From positions 558,001 to 622,000 of the forward strand of contig NZ_CP008887.1 in assembly GCF_000769655.1 (NCBI RefSeq): DNA of 64,000 nucleotides, in the 5' to 3' direction. A program made the position numbers and the translations under genes. Positions within the stretch are counted from its first letter, which is position 1. The number at the start of each line of letters is the position of its first letter. The DNA is from Thermococcus eurythermalis (lineage in GTDB: Archaea > Methanobacteriota_B > Thermococci > Thermococcales > Thermococcaceae). Positions 54,631 through 63,156 of the stretch are shown in pieces. The notes under the pieces are model-generated. The model was not told the origin of the DNA and made no database searches. It worked only from the letters and a program-made list of their open reading frames with translations.

Positions 54631-54738
54631 AGCTTGGGACGATGACGAGAAAGCACAAAACTCTTATCTTAACTCTACACTATTTTGAAAACTATTATTA
54701 ATTTTGTTCATTGTTATTGAAAAGAAGGCTTCTGAGGG

Positions 54739-54760
54739 CTGTATCTACACTGAGATACAG
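54739..54760. promoter_or_regulatory. Palindrome CTGTATCT-N6-AGATACAG upstream of the integrase promoter
   Basis: Arms of eight bases match perfectly (CTGTATCT/AGATACAG) around a six-base spacer. It is a member of the element-wide family GTGTATCT-N6-AGATACAC. It lies about 20 bases before the first integrase TATA box (54780-54789), the usual place of an archaeal activator site. Confidence 0.65.
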
Positions 54761-54779
54761 TCATCACAATTGACAAAAT

Positions 54780-54809
54780 ACTTATAAACTTTTAGTGACT
54801 TTTAGTCAC
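54780..54809 (+). promoter_or_regulatory. Integrase promoter 1 with an AGTGACT operator-like palindrome
   Basis: ACTTATAAAC is the TATA box; GTGACT-TTT-AGTCAC at 54795-54809 (perfect six-base arms) would overlap the expected start near 54810. A repressor bound there would block initiation. Confidence 0.5.
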
Positions 54810-54858
54810 CTCTTCTTGACAAACTGTCTAATTACAACATTGAGAAGTATGGATAATC

Positions 54859-54880
54859 TTTATAAAAGAGCAGTGACTAG
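54859..54880 (+). promoter_or_regulatory. Integrase promoter 2 with an AGTGACT half-site
   Basis: TTTATAAAAG at 54859-54868 is a very good TATA box, with AGTGACTAG immediately downstream at 54872-54880. Transcription would begin close to the GGTGATTGGTG ribosome binding site. The AGTGACT word thus follows both integrase TATA boxes. Confidence 0.5.
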
Positions 54881-54899
54881 TATTCATTGGTGATTGGTG

Positions 54900-56087
54900 A
54901 TGCAGTGGGATAAGTTGTACACATACAACACAAGATTTGAAGTTGTTGATATGTTTGTTGAGCAGAGCAAAGAAGTGTTTGTGATAGTGTCAGACAATGA
55001 CTTTGAAGGTTGGTTGATGTACAAACAGAAGATAGGAACCACAAAAGATTGGATGAGAAACTTGAGAAACTGGACTAGACAGTTCAGAGAAATGATGAGG
55101 GATGAGTTCCCACACCTAACAATTGTTAGGTCTGGGGTGTACTACTATCAACTAAATAGACAAGTTATACACAGATTTATGATGTATCTGTTCAACAAGT
55201 ACAGTTACAGAAGCTATCAGAAGTTCTACCACAGCTTTTTTGACTTCTTAGATTGGGTAGCAACAAACATTGATTTGACTGATGAAGAGTACAAGAACTT
55301 ACTTGTATTACAATCACTTAAAAACAAGTACAGTCTCAGAAAGCTTGTTAATCAACACCAGTTGGCTGAATACAGAGATAGCAGAACAATAAAGGCAGTG
55401 ACAACAGAAGACATTAGAAAGAGTATTGAGTTGATAGTTGACTTGTACAATAACAGTAACAAAATGAGGTTGACAGATTGGTTTGTGTGGAGTTCATCAG
55501 TTGCACTCACAGTTATGAGTGTCACAGGAATGAGGTTCAGGGATTTGAGAAGCATTAAGTTCAGAGATGTGGACTGGGAAGCTAGAATGATTATAGGAAA
55601 GAACAACAAGATTGGAGAGCTAGACTTCTACTTTTTGAATGATGAGGCTCTGGAACTTCTCATAAAGTACAAAGAGTTGTTTGGACTCAGTGACAGTGAT
55701 TACATTGTTGGGTACAGGAGACTTGATGAGGCTTTCAGGAGAATCAGAGAACAGGTCTATTCAAAAGAGCTGATTAAGGCTAGCAGGCTCTCAAACAACA
55801 CAATAATACAGATTCTCTACCCTGTGCAGTTGAAGATGTGCAAGAAAGCTTATGTGAATAGATTGGTTGAAATGGGAGTCAAAGAGCCTGTACTCAGTCT
55901 ACTTACCCACCACAGAAACCCTAGTAGAGGATTGGAGAACAGTCAGGTTGCAAAAACCCTCTGGAATCACTACATCAATAAGGTTGTGAGGGCAGACACC
56001 AATCTCTATAAAATGTTAAGAGAAGAGTATGATAAGGCTTTCAAATCTTTGAAGCTACTCCCTGAGAGCTTCTATGAACTCTTCTAA
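54900..56087 (+). CDS. int: Tyrosine recombinase / integrase of the element
   Basis: 395 residues from ATG 54900 (GGTGATTGGTG upstream). The N-terminal half is a basic/aromatic DNA-binding region. Arg212 in TGMRFRDLRSIKFRDVDW is box I. LKMCKKAYVNRLVEMGVKEPVLSLLTHHRNPSRG resembles box II, with Lys where bacterial enzymes have His, as in SSV-type archaeal integrases. Tyr358 in LWNHYINKV is the likely nucleophile. The gene is unbroken, unlike SSV-type integrases that are split on integration. Its end overlaps the convergent small gene by 33 bases. Confidence 0.85.
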   Translation: MQWDKLYTYNTRFEVVDMFVEQSKEVFVIVSDNDFEGWLMYKQKIGTTKDWMRNLRNWTRQFREMMRDEFPHLTIVRSGVYYYQLNRQVIHRFMMYLFNKYSYRSYQKFYHSFFDFLDWVATNIDLTDEEYKNLLVLQSLKNKYSLRKLVNQHQLAEYRDSRTIKAVTTEDIRKSIELIVDLYNNSNKMRLTDWFVWSSSVALTVMSVTGMRFRDLRSIKFRDVDWEARMIIGKNNKIGELDFYFLNDEALELLIKYKELFGLSDSDYIVGYRRLDEAFRRIREQVYSKELIKASRLSNNTIIQILYPVQLKMCKKAYVNRLVEMGVKEPVLSLLTHHRNPSRGLENSQVAKTLWNHYINKVVRADTNLYKMLREEYDKAFKSLKLLPESFYELF

Positions 56088-56342
56088 GTTTACTTTTTCT
56101 TCTTTTGCTATCTTCTTCCTCTCTAGTAGCTTCTGATGGTAAAGCTCTATGAAGTCATCAATCAAATTCTTCTCTGCTATTATTGTTATCAAAGCATCAA
56201 CTACAGCTGAGGTGTCAGCTCTCTTGTTTGTTGTTACTTTAACCAATTCTTTGAGTTTCTTGTATTTCTCAAAGGCTTTGTCATCTAAGAAGACAGTGTG
56301 GGTTGCTCTCCTCTTTGTCTTCTTTTCAGTCTTCTTCACCAT
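56055..56342 (-). CDS. Small ribbon-helix-helix-like protein
   Basis: 95 residues from ATG 56342 (GGTGATTGCT upstream). A basic N-terminus (KKTEKKTKRRA) precedes a strand THTVFLDD and two helices (AFEKYKKLKELVKVTT; TSAVVDALITIIAEKNL), the layout of an RHH DNA-binding protein. A helical tail rich in Lys/Glu follows. A natural candidate for the protein that binds the palindromes of the element; its own promoter carries one (56390-56407). Confidence 0.6.
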   Translation of the reverse strand: MVKKTEKKTKRRATHTVFLDDKAFEKYKKLKELVKVTTNKRADTSAVVDALITIIAEKNLIDDFIELYHQKLLERKKIAKEEKVNLEEFIEALRE

Positions 56343-56389
56343 AGCAATCACCCAGTTAAAATTAGCATCTTAAAAATAAAAATTTGTTG

Positions 56390-56407
56390 GTATCTACTAT
56401 TAGATAC
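56390..56407. promoter_or_regulatory. Palindrome GTATCTA-CTAT-TAGATAC upstream of the RHH-like gene
   Basis: Seven-base perfect arms; same core as the other element palindromes. On the minus strand it follows CTTTTCTTTTTTATC (terminator of the upstream gene) and precedes an AT-rich promoter and ATG 56342 by about 50 bases. Confidence 0.6.
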
Positions 56408-56431
56408 AAGCTGATAAAAAAGAAAAGTTAG

Positions 56432-56680
56432 TCATCTGAGTGACTTAAACAGTATTATTATTGAGCTGGTGACAGCATAAGCTTCAAATATGAGTCTTAG
56501 TGATGGGTCTGGGTTTATAGTGTTCATAATCATTAGTGTACCTATCACATTCAAAAAAGCAACAATGAACCCTGTCAGACCTCTGACTTTACTCTTTATG
56601 AACATATAGAACACAAATAACATTATTATGATTGGAAAAAAGAACATCATTGCATCTTGTACTGTCCAACTATCAAACAT
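56432..56680 (-). CDS. Small membrane protein of the element
   Basis: 82 residues from ATG 56680, after GAGGTGGGGG. Three hydrophobic stretches (AMMFFFPIIIMLFVFYMFI; LTGFIVAFLNVIGTLMIMNTI; LIFEAYAVTSSIIILF). No family recognised. It has its own palindrome/promoter module just upstream (56714-56758). In a virus this size and composition would suit a coat or membrane protein; that is speculation. Confidence 0.6.
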   Translation of the reverse strand: MFDSWTVQDAMMFFFPIIIMLFVFYMFIKSKVRGLTGFIVAFLNVIGTLMIMNTINPDPSLRLIFEAYAVTSSIIILFKSLR

Positions 56681-56713
56681 TACCCCCACCTCACAAAATA
56701 ATAATGAAATTTT

Positions 56714-56758
56714 TGCTTAGAATTTAACAAAAAATGGTGTATCTCATAGTAGATACAC
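56714..56758 (-). promoter_or_regulatory. Element promoter module: palindrome plus TGTTAAATTCTAAGCA block
   Basis: GTGTATCT-CATAGT-AGATACAC at 56737-56758 (perfect eight-base arms), then on the minus strand TGTTAAATTCTAAGCA at 56714-56729 and ATG 56680. Nearly the same arrangement occurs at 60238-60283. The T-rich end of the upstream gene (TTTTTCTTTTTATTC) directly precedes the palindrome. Confidence 0.65.
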
Positions 56759-56790
56759 ACAGAATAAAAAGAAAAATAGAGAGATAAGTT

Positions 56791-57174
56791 TCATCCATCC
56801 CCAATGAATGGAATCACTTTCACAAGCAGTGCAAATAGTCCATAAGCCATTGGGAAGTAGTAGAGGAACATAAATAAAACACCTAGCACAAAACTGATTG
56901 TTTGTATCTTTTGTATAAGGCTTTCAGGATACACTAAGCTTTTAATCCAGTTCCAAAAACCCCAGTAACTGTTATTACTATTATCTGAGTTATATCCAAC
57001 AACTTGATAAATAGCATCTGATGATGAGGGTGTATCTACATTCTGATACACACTCAAATCAGGATTCTGCCAACTCAAATCAGCTTGTTGATTATCCATT
57101 ACTGCTAATGTATAATTTAATATGTTACTGAGGAATACAAAGAAGATACCAAATGTAATTAATTTAATATTCAT
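56791..57174 (-). CDS. Membrane protein of the element
   Basis: 127 residues from ATG 57174, after GGGGGTGATTGGGG. A signal-like helix (KLITFGIFFVFLSNILNYTLAV) is followed by a polar Asn/Ser/Asp-rich loop (SSSDAIYQVVGYNSDNSNNSYWGFWNW) and two helices (IQTISFVLGVLFMFLYYFPMAYGLFALLVKVIPF). It starts 46 bases after the giant protein gene and is probably in the same transcript. No family recognised. Confidence 0.62.
   Translation of the reverse strand: MNIKLITFGIFFVFLSNILNYTLAVMDNQQADLSWQNPDLSVYQNVDTPSSSDAIYQVVGYNSDNSNNSYWGFWNWIKSLVYPESLIQKIQTISFVLGVLFMFLYYFPMAYGLFALLVKVIPFIGDG
57030..57051. repeat. Palindrome GTGTATC-N8-GATACAC inside a coding region
   Basis: Seven-base perfect arms within the membrane protein gene 56791-57174, over the codons of SVYQNVDT. 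It is the only clear family member placed inside a gene. It could be an internal operator or a chance match. Confidence 0.45.
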
Positions 57175-57220
57175 CCCCAATCACCCCCTTTTGGGTGTGG
57201 AGGGGAGGGGTGAGTAGTCA

Positions 57221-60187
57221 TCAGTCAGACCCCCCTCTAGTCAGTTTATCACTTAATTTGAGGCTAGCTATTACAATTGCTATCAGGCTTATTAAAATGA
57301 GGTAGGCACTGCTTATGATGTGTAGAGCAACAAGCACTAAGAATACAAGTGCCCCAGACACCACAGCAATCTTATCTGATAGTGTGAGATACTTCACAAT
57401 CACAACTAGAGCAATTATGATTAACATTGCCCAGAACTGGGTGTTCAGGAAGAAGTCCCTGAACATCCTCTTCTTCTCAATCTGATTCTGTAAGTCTTCT
57501 GTGAGGGCTATATTGAAGTTGAATGTATCTAGTCTCTTGTATTGCATATTTTCATTGTAATCAAACTGTTGCATCTGAACCCCCAAATCAATCACTCCAA
57601 ATAGCACTTTTGCTATTTTTGTCTGTGCAGACACATAGACATTGTAAGTCATTCCATCCAACAGGACTTTTCTGTCAATAAGACAAGCATATGTTGTGTA
57701 TCTTGTAGTATAAGTTGCAGATTTTCTATCAAAGATAACCTTACAGCTGTATTCTTGAGTTGGTTTGAGCAGGTTGATGATTGCATTGTCTTGTTTGACC
57801 CCCTGCAAGACCATATTACCTTCAAATTTAATTGATATGTCTATATTGTTGATTAAATCATCTCTAATGTCATTGTAATCTAATTGTGAGAGGGTCTGGT
57901 CTGTATTAAAGTAGAGGTTTATGAGGAGCACAAACTTTTCATCAGAATCATAAGCAAATATTATTGTGTCTTCATTCTTCTTTAGAGCTGTTGTGTCAAT
58001 CTCCCTTACAAGCTTTCCATCCTTGTAGACTTTTATTGTTTGAAAATCAGGCAAACCATCCCCATCCTGGTCAATCTGAGACCAATCTATGTATATTCTA
58101 CAGTCATCAGTGACTTTGAAGTTCAGAACCTGCCCATCTTCTGTTTTGAACACATAGCTCTGCTCATCACATACTTGCTGTAATGTGTCATCATAAATCA
58201 CAAAATAGTACCCATCACCAAATGTGTCTTCTCCTTCTCCTGAACTTCCCTCATCTGATGAACTGTTACTGGAAGCTGAAGTACTCATATCAACAATCTC
58301 AGAATTGAGTTGACCATTTGCAACCCAGTTTGTGCTCTTCTGATAGATTATTGCTCCCTGGTCATTTTCTATACTTATTACAACAGTACAGGTTTTTGAG
58401 TAGTCTTCTTGTGAAATCCAGAACCTATTATAAGTATTATCATCTTTTGTTACTTCACAATCTGTGCTCTCTACTCTAATGTTTACTGAATCAGTTACAT
58501 CAGCACCATTCTTGTCATAAACAGTAACATCATATGCTGTTTTTGGCCAGTTGACCTGAGCAACAAGCTTAAACCAGTTCTCTTGGTTCAGGTCAGGGAA
58601 GAGGTAGTGATATCTGTTAATATCATCAGTATCAACAGCATCAGTTCCTGCTGAGTGTATTCCTGTCACAGGGTCTTCTGTTATAATTTGTATGTTAACA
58701 TTGTAATTATCATTATTGTAATCAAATTGTTGGTCTGGGTCTGTTATAAGTCTTGTGACAGTTGTAACATCAGCATCCTTAAACCAATCAGCAAGTTTAA
58801 GTGAATATTTTTTGAATGTAGCTGTTCCTGTATCTTCATCTAGATATTCAACAATTATTTTCATATCATCTTTGAGATTATCTGTAAATATATACACATT
58901 CTTTGCATCAGCAAACTGTTCAAAATCTTTTTGTTTAACATTAATTAATAATAATCCTAATCTTGTGTTAAAATTAAAGTACACAAAAATGTTTCTATAA
59001 AAGTCATAGAATATGACATCATTATAATTGTGTCTATACACTCCTGCCTCTAATGTATACCCATCCCCCAATTGTGTTATTAGTTTATCAGATATTTTTG
59101 CTTCATACTCTTGTTCAGTTGTTGTTTTTGAAATATAATCCTGTTCAACAAGTTTCACTGTGACAGTTTTATAGTGTTTGTTTATAATAACATATGCATA
59201 ATATATTTTACTATTAAATTTAATTGGTGTTGAAAATATACCAGCAACTGACCTGAAGTCTTCTAATTCACCATCACCATCAGTATCAATTTTTTCTGGG
59301 GTATATGAGATACTATGCTCTGAATCATAGTGTATTGTTACTGTTTGTGTCCAACTGTAATATCTTGATGAAGCTGTAACACCAACAAACAAGTCTGCAA
59401 AATCATTATTATAAACTCTAGCAAGCTGTTCACCTGTCCATTCTTGTATATTATAATAATTCCCTGAACCAGAGGAATAGTGATAACTAACAGACAATTT
59501 TTTTGTTAGATACTTATCTGTATCATTTTGTACATCTAAGTCAATTGACAACCAGTTAGCTGTTATCCAGTTCAGTGTCCCTGAGCTATATTCTAAGTTT
59601 GTTTCAAAATAATCAAAATCCTCAGCACTACTAAAATCAATTTTGAGTATGTTTTTGATTGGGTACAACACATCTTCTGATGTTGAACTAAAAATTGTTG
59701 GGTCATATTGTTTGTGTTTGAGTATAAGATAATAAGCATTGTTATCATTCACACCAATGTTTGTTATTGTATCAGGTAAGGGATAAAAATTAGCATTCAA
59801 TAGTTTCACAAGAAAATAAGTATCAAATATATAGTTTTGATTTGTGTCAGTTAAATCAACATATGATAGTTTTATGTCAGTTGTGTGAAAATACATATCA
59901 TACCAACCCATTTTTTTAATAACAGTAAAATTATACTGTGCTGTGGTGTCATTAGCATAAGTGTTGTGTAACCAGTTCCAAAAGTCTAAGTATTGATTTT
60001 GAGCTATATCCTGTTGTCCATTTTCATAAACAAAGCTGAAAACAGCTAATTCAAAGTTATCATTGATTGGTTGACCTGATTCATCATAAATATTAATAGT
60101 GAATTCTTCTAGAATTGCACTCACATACCCCCATTCAATCAGAACTAGAATGAGAAGTGTGAGCACAATAACTTTTCTCTTGCTCAT
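57221..60187 (-). CDS. Giant membrane-anchored ectodomain protein of the element
   Basis: 988 residues from ATG 60187, after GGGAGGGGTGAG; an upstream in-frame start would overlap that site. Signal peptide (KVIVLTLLILVLIEWGYVSA), then more than 850 extracytoplasmic residues, beta-rich and full of Asn, Asp, Tyr and Thr. Two calcium-loop-like motifs, DTDGDGELEDF near residue 299 and DQDGDGLPDFQ near residue 705, resemble thrombospondin type 3/dockerin loops. A Ser/Asp/Glu/Gly linker (SSNSSSDEGSSGEGED) lies near 645. The C-terminus has about three to four helices (FWAMLIIIALVVIVKYL to LILISLIAIVIASLKL). Position among small membrane proteins and an ATPase suits a virion spike/attachment protein or surface component of a transfer apparatus. 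Not assignable to a family by eye. Confidence 0.75.
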   Translation of the reverse strand: MSKRKVIVLTLLILVLIEWGYVSAILEEFTINIYDESGQPINDNFELAVFSFVYENGQQDIAQNQYLDFWNWLHNTYANDTTAQYNFTVIKKMGWYDMYFHTTDIKLSYVDLTDTNQNYIFDTYFLVKLLNANFYPLPDTITNIGVNDNNAYYLILKHKQYDPTIFSSTSEDVLYPIKNILKIDFSSAEDFDYFETNLEYSSGTLNWITANWLSIDLDVQNDTDKYLTKKLSVSYHYSSGSGNYYNIQEWTGEQLARVYNNDFADLFVGVTASSRYYSWTQTVTIHYDSEHSISYTPEKIDTDGDGELEDFRSVAGIFSTPIKFNSKIYYAYVIINKHYKTVTVKLVEQDYISKTTTEQEYEAKISDKLITQLGDGYTLEAGVYRHNYNDVIFYDFYRNIFVYFNFNTRLGLLLINVKQKDFEQFADAKNVYIFTDNLKDDMKIIVEYLDEDTGTATFKKYSLKLADWFKDADVTTVTRLITDPDQQFDYNNDNYNVNIQIITEDPVTGIHSAGTDAVDTDDINRYHYLFPDLNQENWFKLVAQVNWPKTAYDVTVYDKNGADVTDSVNIRVESTDCEVTKDDNTYNRFWISQEDYSKTCTVVISIENDQGAIIYQKSTNWVANGQLNSEIVDMSTSASSNSSSDEGSSGEGEDTFGDGYYFVIYDDTLQQVCDEQSYVFKTEDGQVLNFKVTDDCRIYIDWSQIDQDGDGLPDFQTIKVYKDGKLVREIDTTALKKNEDTIIFAYDSDEKFVLLINLYFNTDQTLSQLDYNDIRDDLINNIDISIKFEGNMVLQGVKQDNAIINLLKPTQEYSCKVIFDRKSATYTTRYTTYACLIDRKVLLDGMTYNVYVSAQTKIAKVLFGVIDLGVQMQQFDYNENMQYKRLDTFNFNIALTEDLQNQIEKKRMFRDFFLNTQFWAMLIIIALVVIVKYLTLSDKIAVVSGALVFLVLVALHIISSAYLILISLIAIVIASLKLSDKLTRGGSD

Positions 60188-60237
60188 ACTCACCCCTCCC
60201 TTGTTTTTCAGTCTCAATATATATTAAGAGTGAAAAC

Positions 60238-60283
60238 TGCTTAGATTTTAACAAAAATCAGTGTATCTACTATGAGATACACT
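60238..60283 (-). promoter_or_regulatory. Element promoter module upstream of the giant protein gene
   Basis: AGTGTATCT-ACTATG-AGATACACT at 60260-60283 (nine-base arms), then on the minus strand TGTTAAAATCTAAGCA at 60238-60253 and a further AT-rich TTAATATATATTG near 60212-60224 before the strong ribosome binding site. The run TGAAAACTGCTTAGA (plus strand, 60231-60245) is repeated exactly at 62366-62380. Confidence 0.65.
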
Positions 60284-60313
60284 CAGTGTAAAAAGAAAAA
60301 GAAGAGAAGGGAA

Positions 60314-60772
60314 TCAGACAGTTTGTAGCTTCTCTCTAAAAGTAACAACAGTTCCAATGCCTCCAATTATAGCTGAGAGGAAGATGAGAGCAACAATCTG
60401 GTAGAGGCCTCCAAGAACCCACATTGATATGAATTGTCCCAGCCACATTGGCTCAGTAATGAGAACTACTAGATAGCCTATTAAACCCATCACAGCACCT
60501 TTTATGTCATTTCTGGTTATGAGATAACCTGGAAGCCCAATCAGAGCAAAGAGAAGTATTATGTTTATGAGCCTGACAAGTGGGTACTCTTGCTCAGCTT
60601 CTTGCATTGTTATTGTTGTCTGGTTACTGACAACTTGTTGTAAGTCTTCATCATATTCAATTCTCTCATAAGTGATTGTGCTGTGCTCATTCATAAAGTT
60701 GTACTTAACTGCTAGAATAAGCAAGAATCCTGCCACAATTATAGCTATAACAAACTTCATAGCTCTGTCCAT
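60314..60772 (-). CDS. Four-helix membrane protein of the element
   Basis: 152 residues from ATG 60772, after GAGGTGATTGGTA. Helices: AMKFVIAIIVAGFLLILAVKY, PLVRLINIILLFALIGLPGYLI, GAVMGLIGYLVVLITEPMWL, and GQFISMWVLGGLYQIVALIFLSAIIGGIGTVVTF. A short acidic/Thr loop (ITYERIEYDEDLQQVVSNQTTITMQEAEQEY) lies outside the first helix. No family recognised. It lies between the ATPase and the giant protein genes. Confidence 0.65.
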   Translation of the reverse strand: MDRAMKFVIAIIVAGFLLILAVKYNFMNEHSTITYERIEYDEDLQQVVSNQTTITMQEAEQEYPLVRLINIILLFALIGLPGYLITRNDIKGAVMGLIGYLVVLITEPMWLGQFISMWVLGGLYQIVALIFLSAIIGGIGTVVTFREKLQTV

Positions 60773-60810
60773 TACCAATCACCTCTTTTTCTTTGTTGTT
60801 GAGGTGGTGA

Positions 60811-60831
60811 GTACCCCAGTGTCTGGGGTAC
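60811..60831. promoter_or_regulatory. GC-rich palindrome GTACCCCAG-TGT-CTGGGGTAC
   Basis: Nine-base perfect arms, unusually GC-rich for the island. On the minus strand it sits about 25 bases after a TATA-like GATATATTATATAATG and before the ribosome binding site of the gene at 60772, so it overlaps the expected start or the leader. Either an operator of its own or a leader hairpin; unrelated in sequence to the GTGTATCT family. Confidence 0.5.
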
Positions 60832-60888
60832 TTCATTATATAATATATCAAAAAATACTTAGCATTTCAAAATAAAACATATACAAAC

Positions 60889-60912
60889 AGTGTATCTATA
60901 TATAGATACACT
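60889..60912. promoter_or_regulatory. Perfect 24-base palindrome of the GTGTATCT family
   Basis: AGTGTATCTATA followed by its exact complement: the best copy of the family. On the minus strand it follows the pyrimidine-rich end of the ATPase gene (CTCTTTCTCTTCTTTTG) and precedes ATTTTGAAATGCTAAGTA, a diverged form of the shared block, then the TATA region of the gene at 60772. Confidence 0.65.
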
Positions 60913-62323: not shown

Positions 62324-62744
62324 AACTCACACCACCCACAAATAATTTTCCAAATAATATTAAACTGAAAACTGCTTAGAATTTTGTTAAAAGTAAAACA
62401 CAACTTCCAGGGTCATCTCACATATATAGTATGTTCTTTTTTGAGATGTTTTCTCAAACTTTTCCCAGAAAAAGTAAACAAGATGAAAGAAAAATTTTTC
62501 ATTTGAAATATTTTCCAAATAAAAAACAAAAATAAAACAGATGAAAATTTTTTGAACAAAAACATATAATATATATTGTTGAGAAATTCTCACAAGTACA
62601 CAAAACCCAGAACAAAATTTTCACACAAAAATAAAACAAAAAGTTTTCAGAAAAAATCCAGAATTCAAAAATTTTTTCAAAAATAAAAATAAAATAAAAA
62701 TTTTTGTGAAAATTTGAAATGACATCTCAAAAAAATCTAGGAAG
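62324..62744. other. Very AT-rich non-coding stretch, possible replication origin of the element
   Basis: About 420 bases with no credible gene. AAAATTTTT-like tracts recur at least five times. A TGAGA word recurs in both orientations: TTTGAGA-TGTTT-TCTCAAA at 62440-62458, TTGAGAA-A-TTCTCACAA near 62579-62595, and GACATCTCAAAAAAA at 62721-62735 as the inverse of TTTTTTGAGATGT at about 62437-62449. The right side of the 62323 gene promoter (62366-62385) carries the shared CTGCTTAGAATTTT block. Low melting DNA with inverted iterated words suits an origin; a pure promoter region would be shorter. Confidence 0.45.
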
Positions 62745-63086
62745 TCAGAATTTGATGAACTTCACAAGCTCTAGCTCTTTTTTGAAGCTTTCAATGTTTT
62801 TAAAAAACCAATCCAACACAAAATCAGCAACATCACTCTTTTTGAGGTCACTTCTCCTCTCACAGAGGTAATTAAACTTGTTTAGAACAGATAAGGACAC
62901 ACTAAGAGATTGTGCTGTGGAATGACCCCACCTCTTCTTACTATAAGCCTTATCAATTGTATCCAAGGGGAACTCAAACACTGCAATAGAAAAGATGTCA
63001 GAAACTGAGAGTTTTGTTTGATTTGAAAGTTCAAGAAGCTTAACATAATTATCTTCACTGATTGACACCCTGAGTACAAACTTCAT
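62745..63086 (-). CDS. Small RHH-like DNA-binding protein candidate
   Basis: 113 residues from ATG 63086, after GGTGAT. Begins with a strand (MKFVLRVSIS) and helices EDNYVKLLELSNQTKLSVSDIFSIAVFEF, compatible with a ribbon-helix-helix domain, followed by basic helices (KRRWGHSTAQSLSVSLSVLNKFNYLCERRSDLKKSDVADFVLDWFF-like layout). Sits next to the AT-rich stretch, so it could be a regulator or an origin-binding protein. Family assignment is tentative. Confidence 0.5.
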   Translation of the reverse strand: MKFVLRVSISEDNYVKLLELSNQTKLSVSDIFSIAVFEFPLDTIDKAYSKKRWGHSTAQSLSVSLSVLNKFNYLCERRSDLKKSDVADFVLDWFFKNIESFKKELELVKFIKF

Positions 63087-63156
63087 ATACATCACCATTA
63101 TTGCTTATTCATATATAATATATATGATATACTGTTTAGCCTATACAATAATACTA

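Follow-up and report, generated by a model that had tools for sequence, protein, structure and literature searches.

We found that the palindrome GTATCT-N6-AGATAC, the exact core of a family with the consensus GTGTATCT-N6-AGATACAC, occurs seven times in the whole 2.1-Mb genome of Thermococcus eurythermalis (Thermococcales), and that all seven copies lie within one integrated virus-like element of ~22 kb, each in intergenic DNA upstream of a gene start codon. We consider it probable (roughly 0.6) that these palindromes are the operators of a regulon private to this element and bound by a putative dimeric protein that the element itself encodes. The window, by which we mean the whole stretch of 64,000 nucleotides that was analysed, corresponds to positions 558001-622000 of the 2.12-Mb chromosome; the left end of the element makes up its right part, and from there the element continues past the window to ~634.9 kb; it is AT-rich (G+C ~35% vs ~56% for the chromosome). 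The element encodes an integrase of the tyrosine recombinase type (54900..56087, + strand; Pfam Phage_integrase, E=2.9e-5, below the cut-off) and a giant 988-aa protein (57221..60187, − strand), for which we found no relatives and which, from its size and position, is probably a structural or surface protein. Two other Thermococcales elements, in other genomes, served for comparison: element B, whose primase is 63% identical to that of the T. eurythermalis element, and element C, whose integrase is 41% identical. Searches of IMG/VR with the ATPase, primase, integrase, RHH1, giant protein, and p290, of phage records with the ATPase, giant protein, and primase, and of plasmid records with the primase returned no relatives.

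The six positions given in the initial annotation (54739, 56388, 56737, 57030, 60261, and 60890, as placed here) were correct to within two bases. Palindrome 1 (CTGTATCTACACTGAGATACAG; 54739..54760, + strand) lies upstream of the integrase gene, at 20 nt from a TATA-like box, CTTATAAA. Palindrome 2 (TTGTATCTAATAGTAGATACCA on the − strand; 56388..56409), which has three outer mismatches and is weaker than every other intergenic site, lies 45 nt from the ATG of the gene for RHH1, a 95-aa ribbon-helix-helix-like protein (56055..56342, − strand). Palindromes 3 (56737..56758, − strand) and 5 (60261..60282, − strand), both with perfect arms, stand upstream of p85 and the giant gene, respectively, and palindrome 6 (60890..60911, − strand), perfect over 24 bases with its flanks, stands upstream of p154. 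Two further sites were found by scanning past the window end, upstream of p290 (65021 in window numbering) and of p160 (76633). The description of the intergenic copies as sitting upstream of genes, the integrase gene included, applies to all seven, but the integrase copy is ~140 nt from its start codon, which makes its link to the integrase weaker than first described. An eighth copy (palindrome 4; 57030..57051, one mismatch) is inside ORF 56791-57174 and has no promoter module beside it; its presence is far beyond chance expectation.

At p85 (CTAAGCA; 56714..56720, − strand), at the giant gene (CTAAGCA; 60238..60244, − strand), and at p290 (TTAAGCA), exactly 16 nt separate the end of the palindrome from YTAAGCA, which bears out the earlier report of TGTTAAA(A/T)TCTAAGCA at the same distance from the palindromes at 56737 and 60261 and extends it to 65021. 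At p154, the distance to CTAAGTA (60856..60862, − strand) is 27 nt (16+11), while at p160 the palindrome overlaps the CTAAGTA core promoter, and the 45 nt between palindrome 2 and the RHH1 ATG mean that this site must abut the RHH1 core promoter. These placements suggest sites of two kinds, activator-like (p85, giant gene, and p290) and repressor-like (p160 and RHH1). In Thermococcales, TrmBL1 palindromes upstream of BRE/TATA lead to activation and those downstream to repression (PMC4706686), and TK0271 acts as an activator from palindromes upstream of BRE/TATA (PMC6737238). By this position rule, we infer, the probable structural genes would be activated by the regulator, with p160 and RHH1 repressed. 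The proposal that one protein switches integrase and structural genes together could not be kept as written, because the positions suggest opposite effects at different promoters; a common switch for the two is possible.

In the mechanism we propose, a protein made by the element, as a dimer or a dimer of dimers, would bind GTGTATCT-N6-AGATACAC. Archaeal activators sit just upstream of the core promoter, and the site has this place at p85, the giant gene, p290, and p154; it would fall at about −44 to −65 if CTAAG is at −27, with that of p154 one helical turn further, and its occupancy would help to recruit TBP/TFB and so turn on the probable structural genes. Occupancy of the overlapping site at p160 and of the abutting site at the RHH1 gene would cause repression, the latter being autorepression if RHH1 is the regulator. 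Counting against the operator reading are the in-gene copy at 57030, the integrase copy far from the int start, and the RHH1 homologue of element C, which is not accompanied by palindromes.

The same operators could serve a pure repressor, a CI/F55-like lysogeny regulator that silences all seven promoters and whose loss induces the element, and we regard this as credible though unlikely. Such a repressor would suit sites found at int and at the majority of promoters in the probable structural module, and SSV1 F55, a virus-encoded RHH repressor, holds its provirus in this way (PMC5569661). However, the p85, giant gene, and p290 sites lie upstream of the core rather than on BRE/TATA or the start site as with F55, and several replication-side promoters (cas4, p129b, and p163b) have no site.

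Alternatively, a host regulator (e.g., of the TrmB family) could recognise the sites, so that the element listens to host physiology. Thermococcales regulators do work through similar palindromes on either side of BRE/TATA, and the TrmB-family (TGM) sequence TATCAC-N5-GTGATA is distantly similar to the palindrome, but the sites do not conform to that consensus and a host regulator would be expected to have chromosomal targets. When up to three mismatches were allowed, counted over the 16 arm bases, we found 12 sites genome-wide, 11 of them in the element and a single one in the other ~2.1 Mb; as a control, the reversed pattern gave two. Equal frequency of the motif in the host chromosome, which the initial annotation had named as the outcome that would overturn it, was therefore not what we saw. 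At the same threshold, the window holds nine matches vs 0.24 expected, a number reached in 0 of 100 shuffles, and at up to two mismatches, dinucleotide shuffles of the element alone gave 0.01 expected vs 7 observed. Beyond this genome, the exact core occurred only three times in 60 other genomes of the genus (singletons with G+C-rich spacers), an IMG/VR scan gave 13 scattered singletons, and 257 Gb of GTDB contigs gave 56 singletons in unrelated taxa vs ~60 by chance; neither of the latter two scans contained clusters, and the family was not found in elements B and C. The suspected privacy of the site to the element is thus upheld, and we consider a host regulator quite improbable. No relative of the element carrying the palindrome appeared among those searched, leaving the family with no phylogenetic footprint.

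We also considered the palindromes as recombination sites at which the integrase or the serine recombinase p221 (L011:14288-14953, encoded mid-operon) inverts or shuffles gene blocks. The nearest NCBIfam model to p221 is the Mpi promoter-inverting recombinase (E=9e-33, below the equivalog cut-off), an inverted repeat of 22-24 bp fits in size, and the spacers at 56737 and 60261 are identical and in inverted orientation. Yet the spacers of the other copies differ, and the sites are single rather than paired around promoters as in the Mpi-type invertible-promoter layout; moreover, the promoter sits between site and gene, so that inversion would not switch it, and recombination leaves the fixed spacing to YTAAGCA unexplained. 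Relatives of p221 (50-59% identical) occur in several Thermococcus genomes, and the five loci that we examined had no palindrome family, although the recognition helix of these relatives also differs from that of p221. Taken together, this makes recombination sites highly improbable.

The arms hardly vary (15-16 of the 16 half-sites keep TGTATC), in contrast to the six bases of the spacer, and this pattern favours protein recognition over a simple RNA hairpin. That the palindromes are hairpins in the terminators of preceding genes is scarcely credible, since, even though the sequence folds (−8 to −10 kcal/mol) and the T/C-rich tract reported earlier is indeed present before every one of the five leftward copies that come after another element gene, the hairpin comes after the T tract and not before it, the int and p160 copies have no preceding element gene, and the arm sequence itself is conserved beyond pairing.

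If the palindromes are operators bound by an element-encoded protein, RHH1 is our best guess for that regulator, but only a tentative candidate for the binder. The one reason to favour it is that its own promoter has the weakest intergenic site, as in autoregulation, an observation that counts only if RHH1 is the regulator. The initial annotation had regarded both RHH1 and p117 as RHH-like; neither gave a confident family or structural match. RHH1 had no match in Pfam, PHROG, NCBIfam, or the PDB, and its AF2 model (pLDDT 58), of too low a quality for use, matched no fold. It has a weak homologue in element B and a 55% identical one in element C, and the absence of the palindrome family around the latter counts against RHH1 as the binder, although one of the three residues expected from alignment to CopG to be DNA-contacting differs between RHH1 and the element C homologue (T14 vs K). 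The serine recombinase p221 (see above) is a further candidate binder, as is p117; the lack of the palindrome family around the relatives of p221, whose recognition helix differs, counts neither for nor against it. The second protein, p117 (62745..63089, − strand), is a possible tandem RHH protein with a weak ORF56 match (E=0.011, below the cut-off), an AlphaFold model too poor to use (pLDDT 46), and no relative in the other 93 genomes. Its promoter has its own, different palindrome (TTATTCATATATAATATATATGATA / TTATTCATATAT...). A second palindrome family, TTATTCATATATATAATATATATGAATAA, lies at genome positions 621105 (window 63105), 628312, 628477, and 633698-633717, at the p117, cas4/p148, and p129b promoters, and is possibly the operator of p117.

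The palindrome and TCTAAGCA had been taken as a single module; we find instead that TCTAAGCA belongs to a core-promoter element in its own right, CTAAG(T/C)R, which also occurs without the palindrome. The palindrome-free CTAAGCA of the p154b-ATPase unit (62373..62379, − strand) shows that the two motifs are separable, and CTAAG(T/C)(A/G) likewise precedes cas4, p129b, and p163b, and TTAAGCA precedes p174, all with no palindrome. Outside coding DNA, (C/T)TAAG(C/T)(A/G) occurs 10 times in the element, each time directed toward the next gene. The genome contains the bipartite pattern CTAAGYR-N7-11-TATTAT six times, always within the element: five copies stand at promoters and the sixth is in coding DNA. 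One relative genome has it in element B alone, and elsewhere it turns up about as often as a reversed-pattern control. Despite having no palindrome, elements B and C carry CTAAGYR at promoters of genes that they have in common with the T. eurythermalis element.

Counted from the C of CTAAG, ribosome sites begin 28-31 nt downstream at p85 (GGDGRD, 30 nt), p163b, p129b, p160, and B32155, an element B promoter. In T. onnurineus, promoters carry their TATA box between −30 and −20 and, at −10, an A/T element (PMC5316973). The ribosome-site distance and this layout together predict CTAAGYR at or immediately next to the TATA position, with TATTAT close to −10. The canonical Thermococcales TATA box at −30 to −20 is TTWTAW, and, judging from the ribosome sites, CTAAGYR would stand in its place at these promoters. 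One interpretation, which we hold to be doubtful, is that CTAAG(T/C)R-N7-11-TATTAT is a TATA-less promoter class belonging to several Thermococcales mobile elements and not to their hosts, that an initiation factor encoded by the mobile elements helps its recognition, and that the palindrome is a layer added by one element. The small proteins of the p129b/p132/p163b group, which is represented in each of the three elements, are a speculative candidate for such a factor. The CTAAG promoter common to the three elements is the more unusual part of the system, and if CTAAG truly replaces the TATA box, it raises the question of how a mobile element redirects TBP/TFB-dependent initiation.

Several observations concern the element as a whole. 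Its right end falls in a C/D box sRNA gene (L012:7888-7947; Rfam RF01128, sR43/sR42, E=2e-13), and no tRNA was found there; at its left end (window ~54640-54660), a second GATGACGAGAAAGCAC-like copy is kept. Element C likewise starts next to the end of the same methyltransferase gene and to GAGAAAGCAC. From the sRNA at the right end and the start shared with element C, this integrase family appears to target an sRNA gene and not a tRNA. We had considered AATTTTGTTCATTGT as the att core and gave it up, the C/D box sRNA repeat being the better candidate. Beside the primase gene are TGTAAGATT repeats (L012:1970-2390), and element B has TGTAACC repeats in the same place (L040:1590-2160); both resemble replication-origin iterons whose sequences have diverged. 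The TGTAACC-N6-GGTTACA palindromes of element B, once entertained as a diverged operator, belong to these iteron-like repeats, and we dropped them, an origin being more likely than an operator. Elsewhere, three adjacent basic coiled-coil-like proteins (103, 192, and 280 aa; L011:11188-12948), all starting with (S/A)YSKxxxK, are probably paralogues, and a Cas4-like PD-(D/E)XK nuclease (L012:216-1229) has a CTAAG promoter to itself, its start being predicted to be leaderless.

We conclude that this 22-kb element probably has its own private switch, set on an unusual promoter sequence that is common to two otherwise different elements. Regulation in viruses and proviruses of euryarchaeal hyperthermophiles is almost uncharted, and our literature search on palindromic operators and promoters of Thermococcales viruses returned a single review. 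Seven natural variants of one site, in activator-like and repressor-like positions, make position-dependent activation directly testable, and the genus has genetics and in vitro transcription systems.

Known systems resemble this one in part. AvtR of Acidianus filamentous virus 6 is a small virus-encoded regulator of the RHH fold; about eight inverted-repeat sites for it lie in the genome of its virus, and it activates at low dose and also represses, its own gene included (PMC5569661). However, AvtR comes from a crenarchaeal virus and its consensus is ATnnTnnTAnnACnTT, whereas RHH1 is not recognisable as AvtR and the binder is only a candidate. SSV1 F55 and SIRV1 SvtR are element-encoded RHH regulators that act on several of the promoters of an integrated virus, but F55 uses tandem ATAGATAG repeats over BRE and the start site, in contrast to a spaced palindrome mostly upstream of the core promoter. 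Sulfolobales viruses have virus-specific early regulatory sequences, one per genome at many promoters and some of them inverted repeats (PMC11065993); their common core is a strong canonical BRE/TATA, whereas ours is CTAAGYR with no recognisable TATA box. Unlike the pT26-2 plasmid family, with its suicidal tRNA-targeting integrase, this element has an intact integrase gene at one end. TrmBL1 (TGM, TATCAC-N5-GTGATA) and TK0271 (TGGACA-N8-TGTCCA) likewise have spaced palindromes placed relative to BRE/TATA, but of other sequence and in host chromosomal regulons, while the sites described here are confined to a mobile element. The closest precedents are therefore the viral RHH regulators AvtR and F55 and, for geometry, the host regulators TrmBL1 and TK0271.
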